Shown piece after piece: positions 19,964-31,007 of a DNA stretch of 64,000 nucleotides (position 1 is its first letter; the number at the start of each line of letters is the position of its first letter). Made by a program: the position numbers and the translations under genes. The DNA is from Spirochaetales bacterium Spiro_05. GTDB lineage: Bacteria > Spirochaetota > Spirochaetia > Sphaerochaetales > Sphaerochaetaceae. Where the stretch lies: positions 17,722 to 81,721 of the forward strand of contig LVBG01000011.1 in assembly GCA_001603115.1 (NCBI GenBank), written 5' to 3'. Under the pieces are notes generated by a model. That model made no database searches, was not told the origin of the DNA, and saw nothing but the letters and a program-made list of their open reading frames with translations.

Positions 19964-20467
19964 ATGCAGACAACACAGAAGAGTATTGTGGCCGTTTTGT
20001 TGGGGAGCGAGAGCGACTTGGACCGGGTACAGGGAGCTTTCCAGGTTCTTTCAGAGCTGGGGATTCCCTTCGAGAAAAGGATTCTCTCCGCCCATCGTAC
20101 CAGCGATGATACGATAGCCTTTGCAGAAACTGCTGCCCAACGTGGCCTGAAAGTGCTGATTGCAGCGGCAGGGAAGGCAGCCCACCTTGGCGGGGTGCTG
20201 GCCAGCAGGACCCTCTTGCCGGTGATCGGCATCCCTTTGTCCACCTCTCTTTCTGGCCTCGATGCACTCTTTTCGACCGTGCAGATGCCAACCGGCTATC
20301 CGGTGGCGAGCGTGGCCATAGATGGGGCAGCCAACGCAGCTCTGCTTGCCGCCCAGATCCTGGCTCTCCAGGATCCCCAACTCTCAGAAAAGCTGGCCAA
20401 AAGGCGCCTTGCCATGGCTGAGCAGGTAATAAGTGCAGACGCGCGAATCAACAAGAGCTTTCCCTGA
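19964..20467 (+). CDS. purE: PurE, AIR carboxylase / N5-CAIR mutase
   Basis: GSESDLDRV, SAHRTSDD, AAAGKAAHLGGVLASRTLLPVIGIP, VQMPTGYPVASVAIDGAANAALLAAQIL. Confidence 0.93.
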   Translation: MQTTQKSIVAVLLGSESDLDRVQGAFQVLSELGIPFEKRILSAHRTSDDTIAFAETAAQRGLKVLIAAAGKAAHLGGVLASRTLLPVIGIPLSTSLSGLDALFSTVQMPTGYPVASVAIDGAANAALLAAQILALQDPQLSEKLAKRRLAMAEQVISADARINKSFP

Positions 20468-20489: not shown

Positions 20490-20509
20490 AATTGCAAGAG
20501 GGAGATGTC

Positions 20510-21223
20510 ATGCAAAAAACACAGCAGCTGTATGAGGGAAAGGCGAAGAAAGTCTATGCAACCGATGAGGCAGGCGTTTACATCGTCTCCTACAAGGATG
20601 ATGCGACAGCCTTCAACGGGTTGAAGAAGGGCACGATCGAACACAAGGGCAGCATCAACAACAGGGTGAGCAACCATCTGATGCAGCTGTTGGAGAAGCA
20701 AGGGATTCCCACCCATCTTTTGCAAGAGCTTTCAGAGTGCGAGACTGCGGTCAGAAAGGTGCGCATCATTCCCTTGGAAGTCATCGTCCGCAACATTGCT
20801 GCCGGCTCGCTTTCGACTCGTCTCGGCCTTGAAGAAGGGACGAAGCTAGGTTGTACCGTGCTTGAGTTCTGTTACAAACGGGATGATTTGGGTGACCCGC
20901 TGGTAAATGAGTACCACATCAGGGCCCTCGGTCTTGCACGTGATGAAGAGCTTGCCCAGCTCAGCTCCTACAGCCTCAAGATCAATGACATCCTTGGGTC
21001 CTACCTGAGGGACCTCGGTATTGAGCTGGTGGATTTCAAGCTTGAGTTCGGCATCACCGACGAAGGCAAGCTGATTCTTGCTGATGAGATCTCACCCGAT
21101 ACCTGCAGGTTCTGGGACACCAAGACCGGCAAGAAGCTGGACAAGGATCGGTTCCGCCGCGACCTCGGCTCGGTAGAGGAAGCGTATCAGGAAGTGCTCT
21201 TCCGCTTGCTGGGCATCAACTGA
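20510..21223 (+). CDS. purC: SAICAR synthetase PurC
   Basis: LYEGKAKKVYATD, SYKDDATAFNGLKKGTIEHKG, LADEISPDTCRFWD. Confidence 0.96.
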   Translation: MQKTQQLYEGKAKKVYATDEAGVYIVSYKDDATAFNGLKKGTIEHKGSINNRVSNHLMQLLEKQGIPTHLLQELSECETAVRKVRIIPLEVIVRNIAAGSLSTRLGLEEGTKLGCTVLEFCYKRDDLGDPLVNEYHIRALGLARDEELAQLSSYSLKINDILGSYLRDLGIELVDFKLEFGITDEGKLILADEISPDTCRFWDTKTGKKLDKDRFRRDLGSVEEAYQEVLFRLLGIN

Positions 21224-22635
21224 TGGCCACTCTTAAGGAAGCGTGCGGGCTGTTTGGCATCTTCTCCGAAGCCGCCGTAGATACCGCCCAGTTCTGCCAC
21301 CTTGGCCTCTACTCGTTGCAGCATCGCGGGCAGGAAGGGTGTGGCATTGCCTGGAATGACAAAGGCTCGCTGACTGTGCAGAAGGACCTTGGGCTGGTTG
21401 CCGAGGTATTTCCTGAACCCGTGCAGGTCACATCCACCACCCGGATGGCAATCGCCCATACGCGGTATGGGACCAGCGGGGAACGATCACGTGAGAATGT
21501 GCAGCCCTTGCTCATCCGTCACCAGATGGGAAGCATGGCCTTGGCCCACAACGGGAACCTCACCAACGATGTGCAGCTTCGCTCATCCTTGGAGCAGCAG
21601 GGCTCACTCTTCCACACTACCAGTGATACCGAGGTGATAGCCTACATCATCACCAAGCATCGGCTTTGCAGTGAGAGTGTGGAGGAAGCGATTGAGAAGG
21701 CAATGGATGAGCTGAAAGGCTCGTACTCGCTTCTGGTCATGACCGCAGGCAAGCTCATTGCAGTCCGCGATCGGTGGGGTTTCAAGCCCCTGTGCATGGG
21801 AAAGCTTGAGGATGGCTATGTATTTGCCAGCGAGAGCTGTGCCCTCGATGCGGTGGGAGCCAAGTTTTTACGGGATGTAGAGCCCGGGGAAATTTGCATC
21901 GTCGATGCCAAGACAGGTCAGCTGGAGAGCAAGAAGCGTCATGTAGGGGAGACCAAGGGCAGTCTCTGTGTGTTTGAGCTGATCTACTTTGCCCGCCCTG
22001 ATAGCGTCATCGATACGATCAGCGTACACCAGGCCAGGCTGCGCAGCGGTGCCTTCCTCGCACTGGAACACCCAGCCCAGGCGGATGTGGTCATCGGAGT
22101 GCCCGACAGCGGCATCGATGCAGCCATCGGCTATGCCTGGCAGTCGGGCATTCCCTACAGCATCGGCTTCATCAAGAACAAGTACATCGGTCGCACCTTC
22201 ATCCAGCCCAAGCAGGGAGAACGGGAGAGCGGGGTGCGCATCAAGCTCAATCCCATCGCCTCCACGGTGGCTGGCAAGCGGGTGGTGCTCATCGATGATT
22301 CGATTGTCCGGGGAACCACCAGCAAGCGGATCGTCCGCCTCTTGCGCGAAGCTGGGGCGAAGGAAGTGCACCTTCGCTCTTCCGCTCCTCCCTTCCTCCA
22401 CCCCTGTTACTACGGAACAGACATCGATTCGCGCAAGGATCTGTTCGCCCACAAGTATTCCCATCAGGAGATGCAGAAGATCCTGGATGTCGACTCGTTG
22501 GGATTCCTGCTTCCCGAGCAGGTGCTCAAACTCAGCGACCATCCATCCATCGGCTTTTGCAGCGCCTGCTTTACCGGCTCCTATCCGTGCGAGCCACCAC
22601 AAGGAGTTGTTGATGCATCCTCAGAGTCACAGTGA
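21223..22635 (+). CDS. purF: Amidophosphoribosyltransferase PurF
   Basis: ACGLFGIFSEA after start Met, LYSLQHRGQEGCGIAW, VVLIDDSIVRGTTSKRIV PRPP motif. Confidence 0.97.
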   Translation: MATLKEACGLFGIFSEAAVDTAQFCHLGLYSLQHRGQEGCGIAWNDKGSLTVQKDLGLVAEVFPEPVQVTSTTRMAIAHTRYGTSGERSRENVQPLLIRHQMGSMALAHNGNLTNDVQLRSSLEQQGSLFHTTSDTEVIAYIITKHRLCSESVEEAIEKAMDELKGSYSLLVMTAGKLIAVRDRWGFKPLCMGKLEDGYVFASESCALDAVGAKFLRDVEPGEICIVDAKTGQLESKKRHVGETKGSLCVFELIYFARPDSVIDTISVHQARLRSGAFLALEHPAQADVVIGVPDSGIDAAIGYAWQSGIPYSIGFIKNKYIGRTFIQPKQGERESGVRIKLNPIASTVAGKRVVLIDDSIVRGTTSKRIVRLLREAGAKEVHLRSSAPPFLHPCYYGTDIDSRKDLFAHKYSHQEMQKILDVDSLGFLLPEQVLKLSDHPSIGFCSACFTGSYPCEPPQGVVDASSESQ

Positions 22636-23647
22636 ACGGTATGCCGAAAGCGGGGTGGATATCCGCCGAGGGTATGAGGCGGTTGAGTTGATCAAGGCCC
22701 ATGTGGCAAGAACTGCCATCAAGGGGGTTCGCTCGGATATCGGCGGCTTTGGCGGCATGTTCGAGCTCGACCTCTCCGAGTGCCCGAATCCGGTTCTGGT
22801 CAGCGGGACCGACGGGGTGGGCACCAAGCTCAAGCTCGCCTTTGCCCTGGACAAGCATGATACCATCGGCATCGATTGCGTGGCCATGTGCGTCAACGAT
22901 GTCATCTGCTGCGGGGCACGGCCGAAGATCTTCCTCGACTACATCGCATTGGGAAAGCTCGAACCGAAAAAGGTGGAGCAGATAGTGAAAGGCGTTGCCC
23001 AGGGCTGTCTTCTGGCAGGTTGTGCCCTGATAGGGGGAGAGACGGCCGAGATGCCGGGTTTCTATGGCTCAGGGGAGTATGACATCGCGGGCTTCTGCAC
23101 CGCAGTGGTGGACAAGACCAAGATTTTCGATACCGCATCCATCACAGAAGGGGATGTCTTGGTTGGCTTGCCTTCCTCGGGCGTCCACTCCAACGGCTTT
23201 TCCTTGGTCCGTTCAATCTTCGACTTGGACAAGCATCCCGAAAACCTTGGGGCATACTATCCAGAGCTTGGATCCACGTTGGGTGCAGCCTTGCTCGAGC
23301 CTACCCGCATCTATGTCCAAGAGGTGCTCTCCCTCTCAGAGCAGGTACCGATCAAGGGGGCGAGCCATATCACCGGGGGCGGGTTCTTCGAGAACATTCC
23401 CCGCTCCCTCCCACAGGGTCTGGGAGCAAGGATCGAGAAGCAGAAGGTGAGGATCCATCCCATCTTCACCTTGATGCAGAAGCTCTCCTCCATCGATGAC
23501 CGGCAGATGTTCAACACCTTCAACATGGGGGTGGGCATGGTCCTCATCCTGGATAAGGACGATGCCGCACAAGCGTTGTCGCTCCTGCCTGACGCCTATG
23601 TGCTGGGCTCGGTGGAGGCAAGTGACGAGCCTCTGGTGCTGCTATGA
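22613..23647 (+). CDS. purM: AIR synthetase PurM
   Basis: 344 aa from ATG 22613 (SD AAGGAG at 22601); VSGTDGVGTKLKLAF, GGETAEMPGFY, SHITGGGFFENIPR. Confidence 0.96.
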   Translation: MHPQSHSERYAESGVDIRRGYEAVELIKAHVARTAIKGVRSDIGGFGGMFELDLSECPNPVLVSGTDGVGTKLKLAFALDKHDTIGIDCVAMCVNDVICCGARPKIFLDYIALGKLEPKKVEQIVKGVAQGCLLAGCALIGGETAEMPGFYGSGEYDIAGFCTAVVDKTKIFDTASITEGDVLVGLPSSGVHSNGFSLVRSIFDLDKHPENLGAYYPELGSTLGAALLEPTRIYVQEVLSLSEQVPIKGASHITGGGFFENIPRSLPQGLGARIEKQKVRIHPIFTLMQKLSSIDDRQMFNTFNMGVGMVLILDKDDAAQALSLLPDAYVLGSVEASDEPLVLL

Positions 23648-24924
23648 TACGTATTGCGGTACTGGCAAGCGGAAGCGGTACCAACCTCCAGGCGCTTTTG
23701 GACGCTGATCTGCTTCCCGGTGAGGTGGTGCTGGTTGCCAGCGACAAGCCCGATGCGCAGGCCCTTGGGCGCAGCAGGATGAAGGGAATCCCTTCCATCG
23801 GCCTCGATCGCAAGACGTTGGGGAGAAAAGCCTTTGAGCAAACGCTCGAAGACCTGTTGGGCGAGCATGCGGTTGACTTGATCGTGCTCGCAGGCTTTCT
23901 GACCATCCTCTCTGCACCGTTTGTGAATGCGCATAGGAATCGCATCATCAACATACATCCCTCCCTGCTCCCCTCTTTCGGAGGAAAAGGGTATTATGGG
24001 GAGCGTGTCCATGAAGCGGTTCTCAAGCGAGGGGTGAAGATCAGCGGGGCGACGGTCCATCTGGTGACCGAAGAGGCGGACGAAGGCCCGATCCTTGCGC
24101 AGCAGGCTCTCAGTGTCGCCGATGATGATACTCCCACATCTTTGGGGCAACGAATCCTCAAGACCATTGAGTGGACCTTGCTGCCCAAGACGGTGCAACA
24201 GTATTGCCGGAAATTGGAGGAAGAGATGCAACTCGAAACATATCTGAAAGGTCTGCGCTACCCGGGCAGGGGCATCCTCTGCGGCCTGAGTGAGGAAGGC
24301 AAAGCCTTGCTCATCTACTTCATCACTGCCCGCAGTAAGCACAGCAGGAATCGGATGCTTGTCGCCCAAAACGAAATGGTGCGTACCCAAGCAATCGATG
24401 AGAGCCTTCTTGTGGACCCTTCTCTGATCATCTACCGGGCGATCGACCGCATCGGCAACGCGTTTGTGGTGGCGAACGGGGACCAGAGTGATGCCATCCT
24501 TGCCTCCTTGGCCTGCGGACACTCCTTTGAGGAGGGCTTGGCTGCTGCTACCTACGAGCCGGATGCGCCCAACTACACCCCGCGTATCAGCGCCCTTTTC
24601 CAAACCGGGGGGCCCATTTCCTACACCCTCTCCATCCTTCGCAGGAGAGAGGACGGTTCGTGTGAGCATGCCTTTTTCCCCTCTGCAAAGCTGCAGGCAG
24701 GAGAGGGCCATCTGATCCATACCTATGAGAAGGAAGAAGAGCCTCTTTCCTCCTTTGCAGGGGAGCCCAGAAAGATGCTTCTCAAAGGGAGCGGGGAAAC
24801 GTTGGCCCAGGGGGTTTGGCAGAGCCTGGATGAGCGGGTCCGGGTAGGCTTGTGTGTGAAAGAAATCGATCTGGATACCCATGAGGTCCAGACCATCATC
24901 ATCAATGCAGAAGAGAGGAGATAG
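23644..24924 (+). CDS. Fusion protein: GAR transformylase (PurN) + PurO-type IMP cyclohydrolase
   Basis: N-term ~194 aa: ASGSGTNLQALLDA, NIHPSLLPSFGGKGYYGERVHEAV, GATVHLVTEEADEGPI (PurN); C-term from Met195: YPGRGILCG...YFITARSKHSRNR...VANGDQSDAI...PNYTPRISALF (archaeal PurO-like). No stop between. Confidence 0.9.
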   Translation: MIRIAVLASGSGTNLQALLDADLLPGEVVLVASDKPDAQALGRSRMKGIPSIGLDRKTLGRKAFEQTLEDLLGEHAVDLIVLAGFLTILSAPFVNAHRNRIINIHPSLLPSFGGKGYYGERVHEAVLKRGVKISGATVHLVTEEADEGPILAQQALSVADDDTPTSLGQRILKTIEWTLLPKTVQQYCRKLEEEMQLETYLKGLRYPGRGILCGLSEEGKALLIYFITARSKHSRNRMLVAQNEMVRTQAIDESLLVDPSLIIYRAIDRIGNAFVVANGDQSDAILASLACGHSFEEGLAAATYEPDAPNYTPRISALFQTGGPISYTLSILRRREDGSCEHAFFPSAKLQAGEGHLIHTYEKEEEPLSSFAGEPRKMLLKGSGETLAQGVWQSLDERVRVGLCVKEIDLDTHEVQTIIINAEERR

Positions 24925-24927
24925 CGC

Positions 24928-26085
24928 GTGGACCGTCTTGAATTGAAGTATGGGTGCAATCCAAACCAGAAACAGGCTGCCATCAGTGTGGAATCAGGGA
25001 GTCTTCCCCTCCAGGTGCTCAACGGAAAGGCAGGGTATATAAACCTGCTCGATGCTCTCAATGGTTGGCAGCTTGTCAGCTCGTTGAAGAGGGCAACCGG
25101 CCTTGCCTCTGCAGCATCCTTCAAGCATGTGAGCCCTGCAGGTGCTGCCGTAGGACTGGCCCTTGATGAGGTGGAGCGAAGTATGTACTTCATTTCGGAA
25201 AGCCAGGAGCTTTCGAGCCTGGCTGCAGCCTATGTACGTGCCCGCGGTGCCGACCGCATGTCCTCCTTCGGCGATTTCATCAGCCTCAGCGATGAATGCG
25301 ACCTCAGTACTGCAAAAGTCATCAAGGCGGAGGTCAGTGACGGGGTGATCGCCCCCTCCTATACAGCTGAGGCGTTGGAGATCCTTAAGCAAAAGAAAGA
25401 CGGTTCCTTCACCGTCCTCGCCATCGATCCCGGTTGGCAAGCCCCGCTTCTGGAGACGCGCTCGGTGTTCGGCATCACCTTCACCCAGGAGCGCAATACA
25501 GTGGTATTGGACAGGGGTATCCTCACAGGCGTGGTGACACGCAAGAAAGAGATTCCCGAGGATGCGGTGATCGACCTTCTGGTTGCCCTCAATACCCTCA
25601 AGTACACCCAGTCCAACTCCGTCTGCTATGCGAAACGCGGGCAGACCATCGGGGTGGGGGCCGGCCAGCAGTCACGCATCCATTGCACCCGTCTTGCCGG
25701 GGATAAGGCAGATCTGTGGCACTTGCGCCAGTGCAAGGCTGTGCTCGATCTTCCCTTCTTGCCCAAGCTCAGCCGCAATGACAAGGACAACGCGGTGGAA
25801 CACTACCTGCAGGGAGAGCTGGAAGGGTGGCGGCAGTATTTCAGTGAGGAGGTCGTCCCTCTTTCGGCAGAGCAAAAAAAGGAAATCCTTTCGCAGGTAA
25901 GCGGGGTCAGCCTGGCCAGTGATGCCTTCTTCCCCTTCCGCGACAATATCGACAGGGCTGCTCGCAGCGGGGTCTCCTATGTCGTACAGAGCGGAGGGTC
26001 CCTTCGTGACGAGCTGGTCATCGAGGCGTGTGACGCGTACAAGATGGTGATGGTGTGCAACGCCATCCGTCTCTTCCACCACTAG
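24928..26085 (+). CDS. Stand-alone AICAR formyltransferase (AICARFT domain of PurH), GTG start
   Basis: KYGCNPNQK, FKHVSPAGAAVG, GDFISLSDECD, TQSNSVCYAKRGQTIGVGAGQQSRIHCTRLAGDKAD; lacks the N-terminal MGS-like IMP cyclohydrolase domain. Confidence 0.92.
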   Translation: MDRLELKYGCNPNQKQAAISVESGSLPLQVLNGKAGYINLLDALNGWQLVSSLKRATGLASAASFKHVSPAGAAVGLALDEVERSMYFISESQELSSLAAAYVRARGADRMSSFGDFISLSDECDLSTAKVIKAEVSDGVIAPSYTAEALEILKQKKDGSFTVLAIDPGWQAPLLETRSVFGITFTQERNTVVLDRGILTGVVTRKKEIPEDAVIDLLVALNTLKYTQSNSVCYAKRGQTIGVGAGQQSRIHCTRLAGDKADLWHLRQCKAVLDLPFLPKLSRNDKDNAVEHYLQGELEGWRQYFSEEVVPLSAEQKKEILSQVSGVSLASDAFFPFRDNIDRAARSGVSYVVQSGGSLRDELVIEACDAYKMVMVCNAIRLFHH

Positions 26086-26086
26086 G

Positions 26087-27388
26087 ATGCGCGTCCTCAT
26101 CGTCGGTTCGGGCGGCCGCGAACACGCCTTGGCAAAAGCGATTGCAAAGAGTGCTTTGCATCCCGTTCTCTTCGGAATCGGGGTGAATGCCGGCATGTCG
26201 GGTCTGGCTGAGATGCAGGACATCAAGCTCTCCGATCATCAGGCCATTCTCTCCTATGCTTGGGACAAGGAGATTGACTTTGCAGTCATCGGGCCAGACC
26301 AGCCTTTGGTGGATGGCTTGGTCGATCTGTTGGAGACAGGGGGAATCCGTTGTTTCGGACCCAATAAGCGCGCAAGCAGGGTTGAGGGCAGCAAGGCTTG
26401 GGCAAAGGCTTTCATGCAGCGCCATCACATCCCCACACCCGCCTATCGTGTGTTCAGCGATGTCAATGAAGCGATGGAGTATGGTGCAATCTGTCCGCTT
26501 CCCATCGTCATCAAAGCCGATGGGCTTGCTCTGGGAAAGGGGGTGGTCATCGCTGAGGACCGAAGCACACTCTTCTCGACGCTTACCGGCATGATGGTCG
26601 ACCATATTCACGGCAAGAGCGGGGAGACGATTGTCATGGAGCAGTTCGTTACCGGTCCTGAAGTCAGCCTTTTGGTGCTTTGTGACGGCGAACATGCACT
26701 CCCCTTATTGAGCGCCATGGACCACAAGCGGGCTTGGGATGGGGACCAGGGACCCAATACCGGGGGGATGGGCGTGGTTGCACCAAACCCGTACTATACC
26801 CAAGAGGTGGCCGATTTCTGCATGCAAAACATCGTGCTTCCGACCATCAGGGGACTCAAGGAGGAAGGCAGCTCATTTGTAGGCTGCCTTTTCTTCGGCC
26901 TCATGATCACCCCCGACGCACCTACGGTCATTGAGTACAACTGTCGTTTCGGCGATCCTGAAGCCGAGGCTGTGCTTGCTCTGCTCGATGATGATTTGCT
27001 GGATCTCCTTCTCAGTGCCCGCGAAGGTACGCTGGATACCAGGCATGTACGTTTCCATCCAGGCTATGCCGTTTCGGTTACTGTCGCCAGCAGGGGATAT
27101 CCCGTCTGTTCTGAGATTGGCAAGCAGATCACCATCGGCAAGATGGCTGACAACGTTGAGGTCCTATATGCAGCGGTAGCTCAAACTGTGAACGGAGAGC
27201 TGATTTCCACCGGGGGGCGGGTGCTCCACGTAGTGGGGAGGGGCTCGGGCATACAAGAGGCGAGAGAGGCTGCGTACGAAGCAGTGAAGCAGACGCATTT
27301 TACAGGGATGCACTATCGCACTGACATCGGTTTTCGTGCGTTGAAGAGGGAGGAGTCTGATGGTTCATCAGGTGCTGTTGTGTCGTAA
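26087..27388 (+). CDS. purD: GAR synthetase PurD
   Basis: MRVLIVGSGGREHALAKAI; RFGDPEAEAVL; ATP-grasp. Confidence 0.97.
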   Translation: MRVLIVGSGGREHALAKAIAKSALHPVLFGIGVNAGMSGLAEMQDIKLSDHQAILSYAWDKEIDFAVIGPDQPLVDGLVDLLETGGIRCFGPNKRASRVEGSKAWAKAFMQRHHIPTPAYRVFSDVNEAMEYGAICPLPIVIKADGLALGKGVVIAEDRSTLFSTLTGMMVDHIHGKSGETIVMEQFVTGPEVSLLVLCDGEHALPLLSAMDHKRAWDGDQGPNTGGMGVVAPNPYYTQEVADFCMQNIVLPTIRGLKEEGSSFVGCLFFGLMITPDAPTVIEYNCRFGDPEAEAVLALLDDDLLDLLLSAREGTLDTRHVRFHPGYAVSVTVASRGYPVCSEIGKQITIGKMADNVEVLYAAVAQTVNGELISTGGRVLHVVGRGSGIQEAREAAYEAVKQTHFTGMHYRTDIGFRALKREESDGSSGAVVS

Positions 27389-30300
27389 GGATGCGTTTAG
27401 GAACCAGGATGCCGAGTTGGCCGCTCAGCTTCGAAGCTTGCTGGGCTTGCAAGACCTCCAGGGCTTGCTGATCTGTCTTCGCTATGCGATCGAGGGTCTC
27501 GATGCAGGGCAAGCCTCCCTTCTGAGTGACCAGCTGCTGGTTGACAGCACGCGTGACAGGAAACTGGATTGCCTTCCTCAGGATACCTGGAATCTTGGGG
27601 TGGAGATGCACAGCGGGCAGTTCGACCAGCGTTCCTATGCTGTCCAGCTCTGCTGCAAGTTGCTGCTTCCCGAAGCGGATATCCAGGTCAGGACAGCCAC
27701 CTTTTACTGCTTTGAAGGTACCTTCAGTGAACAGGAGAAAGAGCGCGTGCGCTCTTACCTCATCAACGAGGTGGAAGCTCGAGAAGCCTCAGAACTGTTG
27801 GCCGACCATCTCTTTGAGCACCAAGAGGCTCCTGCCTTTCCTCCAAGTCTCGAGGGTTTTTGTGAGCAGCAGAACCTGAGGGCCCTGCTCGATGAGCACC
27901 AGCTTGCCATGGATGAGGATGACCTTGCCCTCATCCAGCGCTGGTTCACCTCCCAAGGTCGCAATCCCACGCTTACCGAGCTGAAGGTCTTGGATACCTA
28001 CTGGTCCGATCACTGCAGACATACGACCTTTCTCACCGAACTGGATGAGGTGGTGATTGATGACCCACAGATCGATGCCATCTATCGGATGTTTCTCAGC
28101 GACCGAATGAGACTCGGCGTGAACAAGAGCCTTACCCTCATGGAGCTTGCCACCTTTGCAGCCAAAGTCATACGGGCAGAAGGGGGCTTGACAGAGCTCG
28201 ACCAAAGCGATGAGATCAATGCCTGCTCAGTGCATATCGATGTGGATGTCGAAGGTGAGAAGGTTCCCTACCTGCTCCAGTTCAAGAACGAGACACACAA
28301 CCATCCGACCGAGATTGAGCCCTTCGGAGGGGCCGCCACCTGTATCGGCGGAGCCATCCGCGATCCTCTTTCGGGACGCAGTTACGTCTACCAGGGGATG
28401 AGGCTCTCAGGATCTGGCGACCCTACCACAGCCTTGGACCAGACACGTGAAGGAAAGCTTGCCCAACGCACCATTGCCCTACGATCCGCCCACGGCTTCA
28501 GCTCCTACGGCAACCAGATTGGCCTGGCTACCTCCTTGGTGGAGGAGTTCTATCACCCGGGGTTTGTTGCCAAGCACATGGAGCTGGGCTTTGTCATTGG
28601 CGCAGTGCCTCTGGCTCAGGTCAGACGGGAGAAGCCCGAACCTTCTGATGTGGTCATCCTCGTTGGGGGCAGGACTGGCCGGGACGGCTGCGGTGGTGCT
28701 ACCGGCTCTTCGAAGAGCCATGGCCTGACCAGTCTGGAGACGTGTGCCAGTGAGGTCCAGCGGGGCAATGCACCCCAGGAGCGCAAGTTGCAGCGTCTGA
28801 TGCGAAGAGCTGAGGTGACCCGCCTGATCAAGCGGTGCAATGATTTTGGTGCTGGGGGTGTGAGCGTAGCCATCGGAGAGCTGGCCGACGGGGTGATGAT
28901 CGACCTTGATGCACTTCCCACCAAGTACGAGGGGCTGGATGGGACAGAGCGGGCGATTAGCGAAAGCCAGGAGCGGATGGCCATGGTGGTTGCCGAGCAG
29001 GATGCAGCAGCCTTTCTTCGCTATGCCGAGGAGGAGAACCTCGAGGCGACGGTGGTTGCCCGGATTACCGAAGAACCTAAGCTGGTGATGCACTACCAAG
29101 GAAAGACCTTGGTGAACCTCAGCCGTGAGTTGCTCTCCAGCAATGGAGCGAAAAAGAGGGCGGGCGTCCATGTTCCCCGCTATGCGGACCCGACTGCGAA
29201 GCGAGCGCACTTTGGAGAAGCAGAGCTGGATGCATTACTTTGTGACCTCAACTCAGCAAGCAAGCAAGCGTTGTCACAGCGTTTTGACAATACCATCGGT
29301 GGAGGCAGTGTGCTGCAGAGCTATGGCGGAGTCACACAGTCAAGTCCGGCGCAGGTGATGGCAGCACTCATTCCGACAGCTGAGGGAAAGACCACAACCA
29401 CCAGCCTTGCTTCCTACGGCTATGACCCCTATGAATCTGAGGCAAATCCCTTCAGAGGAGCCTTTCTTGCAGTAACACACTCGCTTGCAAAAGTTGCGGC
29501 TGCAGGGGGTGATCTTGATCAGACCTATCTGACGTTCCAGGAGTACTTCGGAAAGCTTGGAAGCGACCCTATTCGTTGGGGCCTGCCGTTCGCCTCCCTC
29601 TTGGGCGCTTACAAGGCACAGCGGCTCTTCAGGACGGCCGCCATCGGGGGAAAGGACTCGATGAGCGGCACCTACGGCTCGCTTTCGGTTCCTCCCACGC
29701 TGGTAAGCTTTGCCGTAAGCGTGGCAGAGAAGCAGATGCTCGGCAGCAACCACTTTGCACAGGCAGGTTCATCGCTCTACCTCCTTGAAGCAGGGCGGGA
29801 AGAAGAGCTTCCCTCCCTTTTCAGCTACGTAAGCACCTTAGTTCGGCAAAAGCGAGTACGTGCAGCGTACGCCTTGGGCTGGGGTGGGTTGGCTCTTGCG
29901 GGAATTCACATGAGCATGGGCAATGAAATAGGGTGCATCTTTGCGTGCGAGCTTGATCTTGCCCAGAAGCGGTATGGATCTTTCCTGGTCGAGGTGGAAG
30001 GAGCTTTGGAGGTTGGTTTGAAGGTCGGCCGGACTACTGCAGAACCTGAGGTGGTATTCCCGACTTGCAGCAAGGATATCAAAGCACTGCGATCGAGTCT
30101 GGAAGCACCGCTTGCAGGAGTATATGGAGCGATGCATACAAAAGGTGAGCGAGTCCCCACCTTGGGCTTTGTTGCACAATCACATGCGAAATGCCGCTAC
30201 CCCAAGGCAAAACCACGGGTGCTCATCCCGGTCTTCGAGGGAACCAACTGTGAGCTCGACAGCCAGAGGGCATGGAAGGCAGTGGGAGCTGAGGTTGAAT

Positions 30301-31007
30301 TGCTTGTGGTAAATACCCTTTCTCCTCGGCAGGTTGAGATGAGTGTCACCCGGATGATCTCCTCCCTCGAACAGAGCCAGATCCTATTCTTGAGTGGAGG
30401 CTTCTCTGCAGCAGACGAACCTGATGGCTCGGGCAAGTTCATTGCATCCTTTTTGGCCAATCCCCTGATCAAGGCCAGGATCGAGGCCTTGCTTGCCCAG
30501 CATGACGGACTGGTGGGAGGCATATGCAATGGGTTCCAGGCTCTTGTACGGCTCGGGCTGCTTCCTCATGGGAAGATACAAAAACCCAAAGCAGGGGAGC
30601 CTATGTTGCTGGACAACCAGGTGGGGCATCATATCTCCCGTCTGGTCAACTGCCGCGTCAGTTCAACCCTTTCGCCTTGGTTCAGTGCCTTCAAGGTGGG
30701 AGATGTCCAGCTTCTTCCCGTCTCCCATGGGGAGGGGCGGTTCTTTGCAGAGGAATCGGTGCTTGCAGACCTGATCAAGGGCGGCCAGATAGCCAGCCAG
30801 TATGTGGACAGCCAGGGGTATGCAACCACCACGTTTCCAGACAATCCCAATGGTTCCCTGTACGCAGTGGAAGCCTTGAGCAGTGTGGATGGGAAGGTGT
30901 TCGGCAGGATGGCACACAGCGAACGCATGGTGGATCAGCTGTATCTGAACACCGAGGCAAAAGCTGATGCTGCGCTGTTTTGGGGCGCTGTCCGCTATTT
31001 TGGTTGA
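27360..31007 (+). CDS. purL: FGAM synthase PurL (large single-chain with C-terminal glutaminase)
   Basis: 1215 aa; YWSDHCRHTTF, FKNETHNHPTEIEPFGGAATCIGG, C-term GGICNGFQALVRLGLLP glutaminase; overlaps purD by 29 bp. Confidence 0.96.
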   Translation: MVHQVLLCRKDAFRNQDAELAAQLRSLLGLQDLQGLLICLRYAIEGLDAGQASLLSDQLLVDSTRDRKLDCLPQDTWNLGVEMHSGQFDQRSYAVQLCCKLLLPEADIQVRTATFYCFEGTFSEQEKERVRSYLINEVEAREASELLADHLFEHQEAPAFPPSLEGFCEQQNLRALLDEHQLAMDEDDLALIQRWFTSQGRNPTLTELKVLDTYWSDHCRHTTFLTELDEVVIDDPQIDAIYRMFLSDRMRLGVNKSLTLMELATFAAKVIRAEGGLTELDQSDEINACSVHIDVDVEGEKVPYLLQFKNETHNHPTEIEPFGGAATCIGGAIRDPLSGRSYVYQGMRLSGSGDPTTALDQTREGKLAQRTIALRSAHGFSSYGNQIGLATSLVEEFYHPGFVAKHMELGFVIGAVPLAQVRREKPEPSDVVILVGGRTGRDGCGGATGSSKSHGLTSLETCASEVQRGNAPQERKLQRLMRRAEVTRLIKRCNDFGAGGVSVAIGELADGVMIDLDALPTKYEGLDGTERAISESQERMAMVVAEQDAAAFLRYAEEENLEATVVARITEEPKLVMHYQGKTLVNLSRELLSSNGAKKRAGVHVPRYADPTAKRAHFGEAELDALLCDLNSASKQALSQRFDNTIGGGSVLQSYGGVTQSSPAQVMAALIPTAEGKTTTTSLASYGYDPYESEANPFRGAFLAVTHSLAKVAAAGGDLDQTYLTFQEYFGKLGSDPIRWGLPFASLLGAYKAQRLFRTAAIGGKDSMSGTYGSLSVPPTLVSFAVSVAEKQMLGSNHFAQAGSSLYLLEAGREEELPSLFSYVSTLVRQKRVRAAYALGWGGLALAGIHMSMGNEIGCIFACELDLAQKRYGSFLVEVEGALEVGLKVGRTTAEPEVVFPTCSKDIKALRSSLEAPLAGVYGAMHTKGERVPTLGFVAQSHAKCRYPKAKPRVLIPVFEGTNCELDSQRAWKAVGAEVELLVVNTLSPRQVEMSVTRMISSLEQSQILFLSGGFSAADEPDGSGKFIASFLANPLIKARIEALLAQHDGLVGGICNGFQALVRLGLLPHGKIQKPKAGEPMLLDNQVGHHISRLVNCRVSSTLSPWFSAFKVGDVQLLPVSHGEGRFFAEESVLADLIKGGQIASQYVDSQGYATTTFPDNPNGSLYAVEALSSVDGKVFGRMAHSERMVDQLYLNTEAKADAALFWGAVRYFG

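Follow-up and report, generated by a model that had tools for sequence, protein, structure and literature searches.

PurO, the archaeal-type IMP cyclohydrolase, has been called exclusive to Archaea (PMC4177761), and the count cited for bacteria is 22 of 1266 (PMC6797443); the scans reported here gave far more bacterial PurO than the latter figure. The archaeal enzymes (M. thermautotrophicus 2ntk/2ntm; T. kodakarensis TK0430, PMC6797443) share with the protein studied here family PF07826, an Ntn-hydrolase-like fold and the Arg/Tyr/Glu residues, and in both cases an N-terminal nucleophile is not needed (PMC6797443). They are, however, stand-alone proteins paired with PurP or PurH1, whereas the bacterial clade pairs with a folate-dependent AICAR formyltransferase (AFT), and the PurN domain at the N-terminus of PurO is a feature of the source genus that stand-alone archaeal PurO does not have. 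In halobacteria PurN is likewise joined to a late-pathway enzyme, PurO again serves step 10, and steps 9 and 10 lie on different chains (PMC3261824). There the partner of PurN is PurH1 (AICARFT), both domains using 10-formyl-THF, and PurO is free, whereas in our case the partner is PurO and the AICARFT is free.

PurH and the eukaryotic ATIC also perform steps 9 and 10, and the AFT described below groups with the AICARFT domain of ATIC; in contrast to these enzymes, the PurH-type cyclohydrolase domain is absent and step 10 falls to an unrelated fold fused to PurN. The clostridial purE-F-M-N-O-AFT-D operons (Roseburia, Blautia, Butyrivibrio etc.) have the same gene order and the same PurO and AFT families, but purN and purO were unfused in the 80 loci read. 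A different fusion of the same two families, in the same operon as that of the source genus, is found in sister genus g11, where PurO is joined to the downstream AFT; the resulting bienzyme is PurH-like in its domain order, but its N-terminal cyclohydrolase domain has an unrelated fold.

In this study, we report the analysis of a purN-purO gene in a 64,000-nucleotide stretch of the genome of Spirochaetales bacterium Spiro_05, hereafter the window. As far as the open-licence literature was searched, PurN-PurO is a previously undescribed fusion of known enzymes: no earlier report was found there, and the architecture may well be recorded in protein databases.

Results and Discussion

The purine cluster of the window is complete and lies on the forward strand in the order purE-C-F-M-[N-O]-AFT-D-L (Table 1). 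No Rfam riboswitch was found upstream of it, two tRNAs being the only Rfam matches in the window.

Table 1. Genes, domains and candidate signals of the purine cluster (positions in the window)
Feature	Position	Strand	Basis or remark
purE	19964..20467	+	PF00731
purC	20492..21223	+	PF01259
purF	21223..22635	+	GATase + Pribosyltran
purM	22613..23647	+	AIRS/AIRS_C; 4-nt overlap with purN
purN-purO fused gene, 426 aa (predicted GAR formyltransferase + IMP cyclohydrolase)	23644..24924	+	ORF, ATG start; PF00551 + PF07826
PurN domain, residues 1-194; N103, H105, D146	23644..24225	+	TIGR00639 over cut-off
GGAGGA, Shine-Dalgarno-like, inside the ORF	24216..24221	+	GGAG in linker of 19/19 fusions
Met195 codon ATG, old purO start, candidate internal start	24226..24228	+	0 changes on tree
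PurO (IMP cyclohydrolase) domain, residues 195-426; R230, Y264, E305	24226..24921	+	PF07826; 2ntk/2ntm profile + fold
Stand-alone AICAR formyltransferase (AFT), 385 aa, GTG start, catalytic Lys66-His67	24928..26085	+	NF005492
purD	26087..27388	+	GARS_N/A/C
purL, single chain	27360..31007	+	FGAR-AT linker, AIRS_C, GATase_5

Domains of the fused gene

The original prediction described the 426-aa ORF as a full PurN followed in frame by a PurO-like domain, and this was borne out. The frame is unbroken, Pfam places Formyl_trans_N at residues 3-176 (E 6e-45), and the protein scores 168.4 bits against the PurN equivalog TIGR00639 (cut-off 150.1). The Pfam comparison proposed for the C-terminal domain returned IMP_cyclohyd (PF07826) at residues 206-409 (E 2.5e-44; 151.6 bits, gathering cut-off 28.1). 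The catalytic PurN residues N103, H105 and D146, whose E. coli counterparts are N106, H108 and D144, and the PurO residues R230, Y264 and E305 are invariant in all 19 fusions found, the latter being of the same Arg/Tyr/Glu type as in archaeal PurO (residue types from PMC6797443; the MtPurO numbering is our own count).

The AlphaFold2 model of the fusion protein has a mean pLDDT of 92. In fold comparison with the PDB, its PurN half matches GAR transformylases (3auf, E 5e-19) and its PurO half matches archaeal PurO (2ntk, E 3e-14). The PurO fold as such matches 2ntk/2ntm/1kuu with E about 1e-14, TM 0.75 by target length and rmsd 4.8-5.6; the structure-based identity to the archaeal enzyme is low, at 22%. 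In the model, the long PurN helix (164-193) continues straight into a PurO helix (197-202). The family of folds to which PurO belongs has an N-terminal nucleophile and self-processing, and since PurO does without both (PMC6797443) an N-terminal fusion can be tolerated.

The PurO domain failed the archaeal equivalog TIGR01922 (41.7 bits, cut-off 158) and likewise stayed below the cut-off of the archaeal model NF003167, which places it in a bacterial subfamily distinct from the archaeal equivalog. These low scores, together with an Asp where archaeal PurO has its substrate-contacting Asn54 (our own count of positions, from PMC3261824), would fit a PF07826 protein with a job other than IMP cyclohydrolase. 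Against such a role stand the invariant Arg/Tyr/Glu, the place of the gene in a pur operon, the strict pairing of PurO with AFT and its strict exclusion of PurH, and the fact that the pathway would be left with step 10 missing; we regard it as very improbable. We consider with good confidence that the gene encodes a bifunctional enzyme of de novo purine synthesis, of overlapping-gene origin, with PurN for step 3 and a PurO-type IMP cyclohydrolase for step 10, both activities in vivo being inferred from domains, catalytic residues and conservation. Step 3 as catalysed by PurN depends on 10-formyl-THF. Channelling between the two halves was considered and rejected, because steps 3 and 10 have no common intermediate.

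Occurrence of the fusion in the source genus

The genome of the window is a fragmented metagenome-assembled genome, a circumstance that could favour a junction of two genes by frameshift or assembly artefact, as the original prediction had itself contemplated. The same frame is nevertheless open in 18 other genomes of the source genus, with a constant linker length and no indels across the 19 fusions, at an identity of 50-60% in the deeper branches. Several of these genomes (G091, G092, G094, G100, G110, and G113) are single contigs. An error of this kind is therefore excluded, its probability being negligible, and the claim that steps 3 and 10 are joined in one polypeptide holds, with domains above their cut-offs and the fusion in 19 genomes. 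Within the source genus, each purine cluster that was read had PurN fused to PurO.

Distribution of PurO, AFT and PurH

The 139 genomes of the order all belong to one family, and PurO was found in 98 of them, together with AFT in 97 of the 98; it was absent from all 11 genomes that encode a complete PurH. An intact PurH elsewhere in the genome would have been at odds with the proposed reshuffling. No full PurH was found in the 97 relatives with PurO and AFT; in the window's own genome, which is 69% complete, the only matches to PF07826 and PF01808 were the fusion gene and the AFT. The other genera that have the cluster either carry purN and purO side by side as individual genes or show the PurO-AFT fusion, which was read at 12 loci in g11 (L093-L104) and has a length of about 604-653 aa. 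One operon has given rise to two different fusions within a single family, which provides a natural experiment on the reasons for fusing purine enzymes.

Second copies of PurO without an adjacent AFT were observed in G105, G030, G048 and G066 (L046, L085, L089, and L092). In the purine cluster of G082 (L063), purF, purM, purO and purL are broken over several frames, and decay or poor sequence is likely.

Beyond the order, PurO was present in 87 of 393 genomes of Spirochaetota; among the matches listed, all PurO frames of fusion length were in the source family. A scan with one genome per species gave at least 591 PurO-encoding stretches. The best 80 of these at least 591 loci belonged to Bacillota, mostly Clostridia, with the order purN-purO-AFT where purN was near and no PurN-PurO fusion among them. 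Bacterial PurO, as identified by these matches, is common in Clostridia and in Spirochaetota and is no archaeal oddity. With this distribution, and with a score that falls far short of the cut-off for the archaeal equivalog, the view of an archaeal-type PurO as an exotic import is not supported.

The adjoining AICAR formyltransferase

The gene downstream of the fusion was expected to encode the AICARFT half of PurH, freed as a separate step-9 enzyme. A separate AICARFT it is, with 589.7 bits against NF005492 (cut-off 415) and K66-H67 present. With the bifunctional PurH model TIGR00355 it reached only 274.7 bits (cut-off 528), the match beginning at profile position 206, and the N-terminal cyclohydrolase domain of PurH is lacking. 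It scores 428 bits against the AICARFT domain of a vertebrate (chicken) ATIC and less than 100 against bacterial PurH, and in the tree a long branch with full support divides the AFT and the chicken sequence from the PurHs of the order to which the source genus belongs. On these comparisons the AFT belongs with the AICARFT domain of eukaryotic ATIC, and its derivation as a freed half of bacterial PurH was rejected by the AFT tree.

Because the AFT is no remnant of a PurH, steps 9 and 10 lay on separate proteins before the fusion; judged from sequence, the AFT was already a stand-alone gene beside purO when purN and purO were joined. Since the AFT performs step 9, it and the PurO domain together replace PurH. 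The common view that steps 9 and 10 fall to PurH in bacteria and that PurO is archaeal thus needs correcting: many bacteria use PurO with an ATIC-like AICARFT.

Origin of the fusion

Among 18 unfused relatives, 16 have a purN that runs 4-23 nt into purO in a different reading frame. Because of this overlap, the Shine-Dalgarno sequence of purO lies inside purN, and with the frames offset in this way a small indel can be enough to fuse the two genes. The ancestral operon would have been purN-purO-AFT with purN and purO so overlapping; a small indel in the overlap, within the ancestry of the source genus, would have joined both frames, and the ribosome-binding site and ATG of purO would have been left inside the new ORF by that indel.

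In the PurO tree, in which some long branches are unreliably placed, the main fused clade (support 100) includes three unfused members without purC. In these, purO follows another gene and has other neighbours, which suggests that they lost PurN after losing the pathway. Close to this clade lies a second fused group of the genus, which is interspersed with the unfused G116 and G030, and the fusion in the genus may have had one or two origins. The possibility that g2 (G013/G014) has another functional PurN-PurO fusion was also considered and rejected: purC is absent and the PurN part has decayed, with the N-terminus missing, the Asp motif changed and, in G013, stops upstream.

Candidate internal start of a free PurO

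The Met at the junction lies exactly 11 residues before YPGR in all 21 in-frame cases, among them the 19 fusions of the source genus. On the tree this Met never changes, whereas linker residues -2, -1, +1 and +5 change 6-7 times each. GGAG is located at -10 to -7 in 18 fusions and at -9 to -6 in the remaining one. The codon usage of the linker points in the same direction: its Glu codon is GAG in 18/18 and its Leu codon TTG in 13/13, whereas elsewhere conserved Glu columns contain both GAG and GAA and have changed 3-4 times. Given the amino acids, the retention of TGGAG in five lineages has a P of about 0.0065 with the lineages treated as independent, which they are not fully, and stretches of 4 nt equally conserved in the same phase make up 4% of the gene. 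The predicted pairing with the anti-Shine-Dalgarno sequence is -9.3 kcal/mol at the junction of the window's gene vs. a mean of -3.3 kcal/mol at its other Met codons. The synonymous-codon signal for an internal start is moderate.

These features could also be explained with fused PurN-PurO as the one product, Met and GGAG being relics of the old start or being kept by the protein itself (L-E-x-x-M at a helix junction). In the model Met195 may pack between the PurN and PurO helices, the linker length is unchanged in the 19 genomes, and the synonymous test on any single gene was not significant, all of which agree with a single product. Such a constraint would have to leave adjacent linker residues almost free to change while never letting the Met change, and it does not account for a Shine-Dalgarno sequence favoured by codon choice in several lineages. 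In addition, the start Met of AFT was retained in only 1 of the 12 PurO-AFT fusions, and in G013 of g2 an intact PurO still follows the same Met and a strong AGGAGG even though the preceding PurN part is disrupted; this PurO would most simply be made from that junction Met. A single product is quite conceivable, although we incline somewhat away from it.

We slightly favour the reading that a free PurO is also made from the internal start, besides PurN-PurO; with both proteins made, the supply of PurO could exceed that of PurN. As to a selected internal ribosome-binding site, with one ORF for two enzymes and the steps-9/10 module supplied apart from PurN, the balance is about even. If true, fusing the two genes would not have cost the cell its separate PurO, which could serve for example in AICAR recycling from histidine synthesis, and the passage from overlap to fusion with a kept internal start would be a simple route by which genes fuse and the separate protein is retained. 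The internal start, the PurO-AFT type of fusion and the retention of PurO and AFT described below go beyond the original prediction.

PurO and AFT in genomes without de novo synthesis

PurO and AFT are kept in 54 genomes without purC, and HisA/HisF are present in 50 of the 54. In the purC-less genomes AFT and His genes co-occur (Fisher P 7e-7, uncorrected for kinship or genome reduction). There the pair probably returns the AICAR from histidine synthesis to IMP, as gene content indicates.

In genomes of the source genus without purC, purO, mostly with AFT, was seen behind genes for a small YNCAQ...GFGGGMGG protein and a radical-SAM-like protein, lying close to the upstream gene or overlapping it, at L037, L038, L042, L044, L053, and L057. 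In addition, the window's own genome encodes a second, orphan PurD-like protein of 418 aa with all three GARS domains (G000:C59, L231:1065-2321), whose gene adjoins dus- and tatD-like genes. A GARS_N protein was found in 133 of the 139 genomes of the order, including genomes of about 1.2 Mb without purC.
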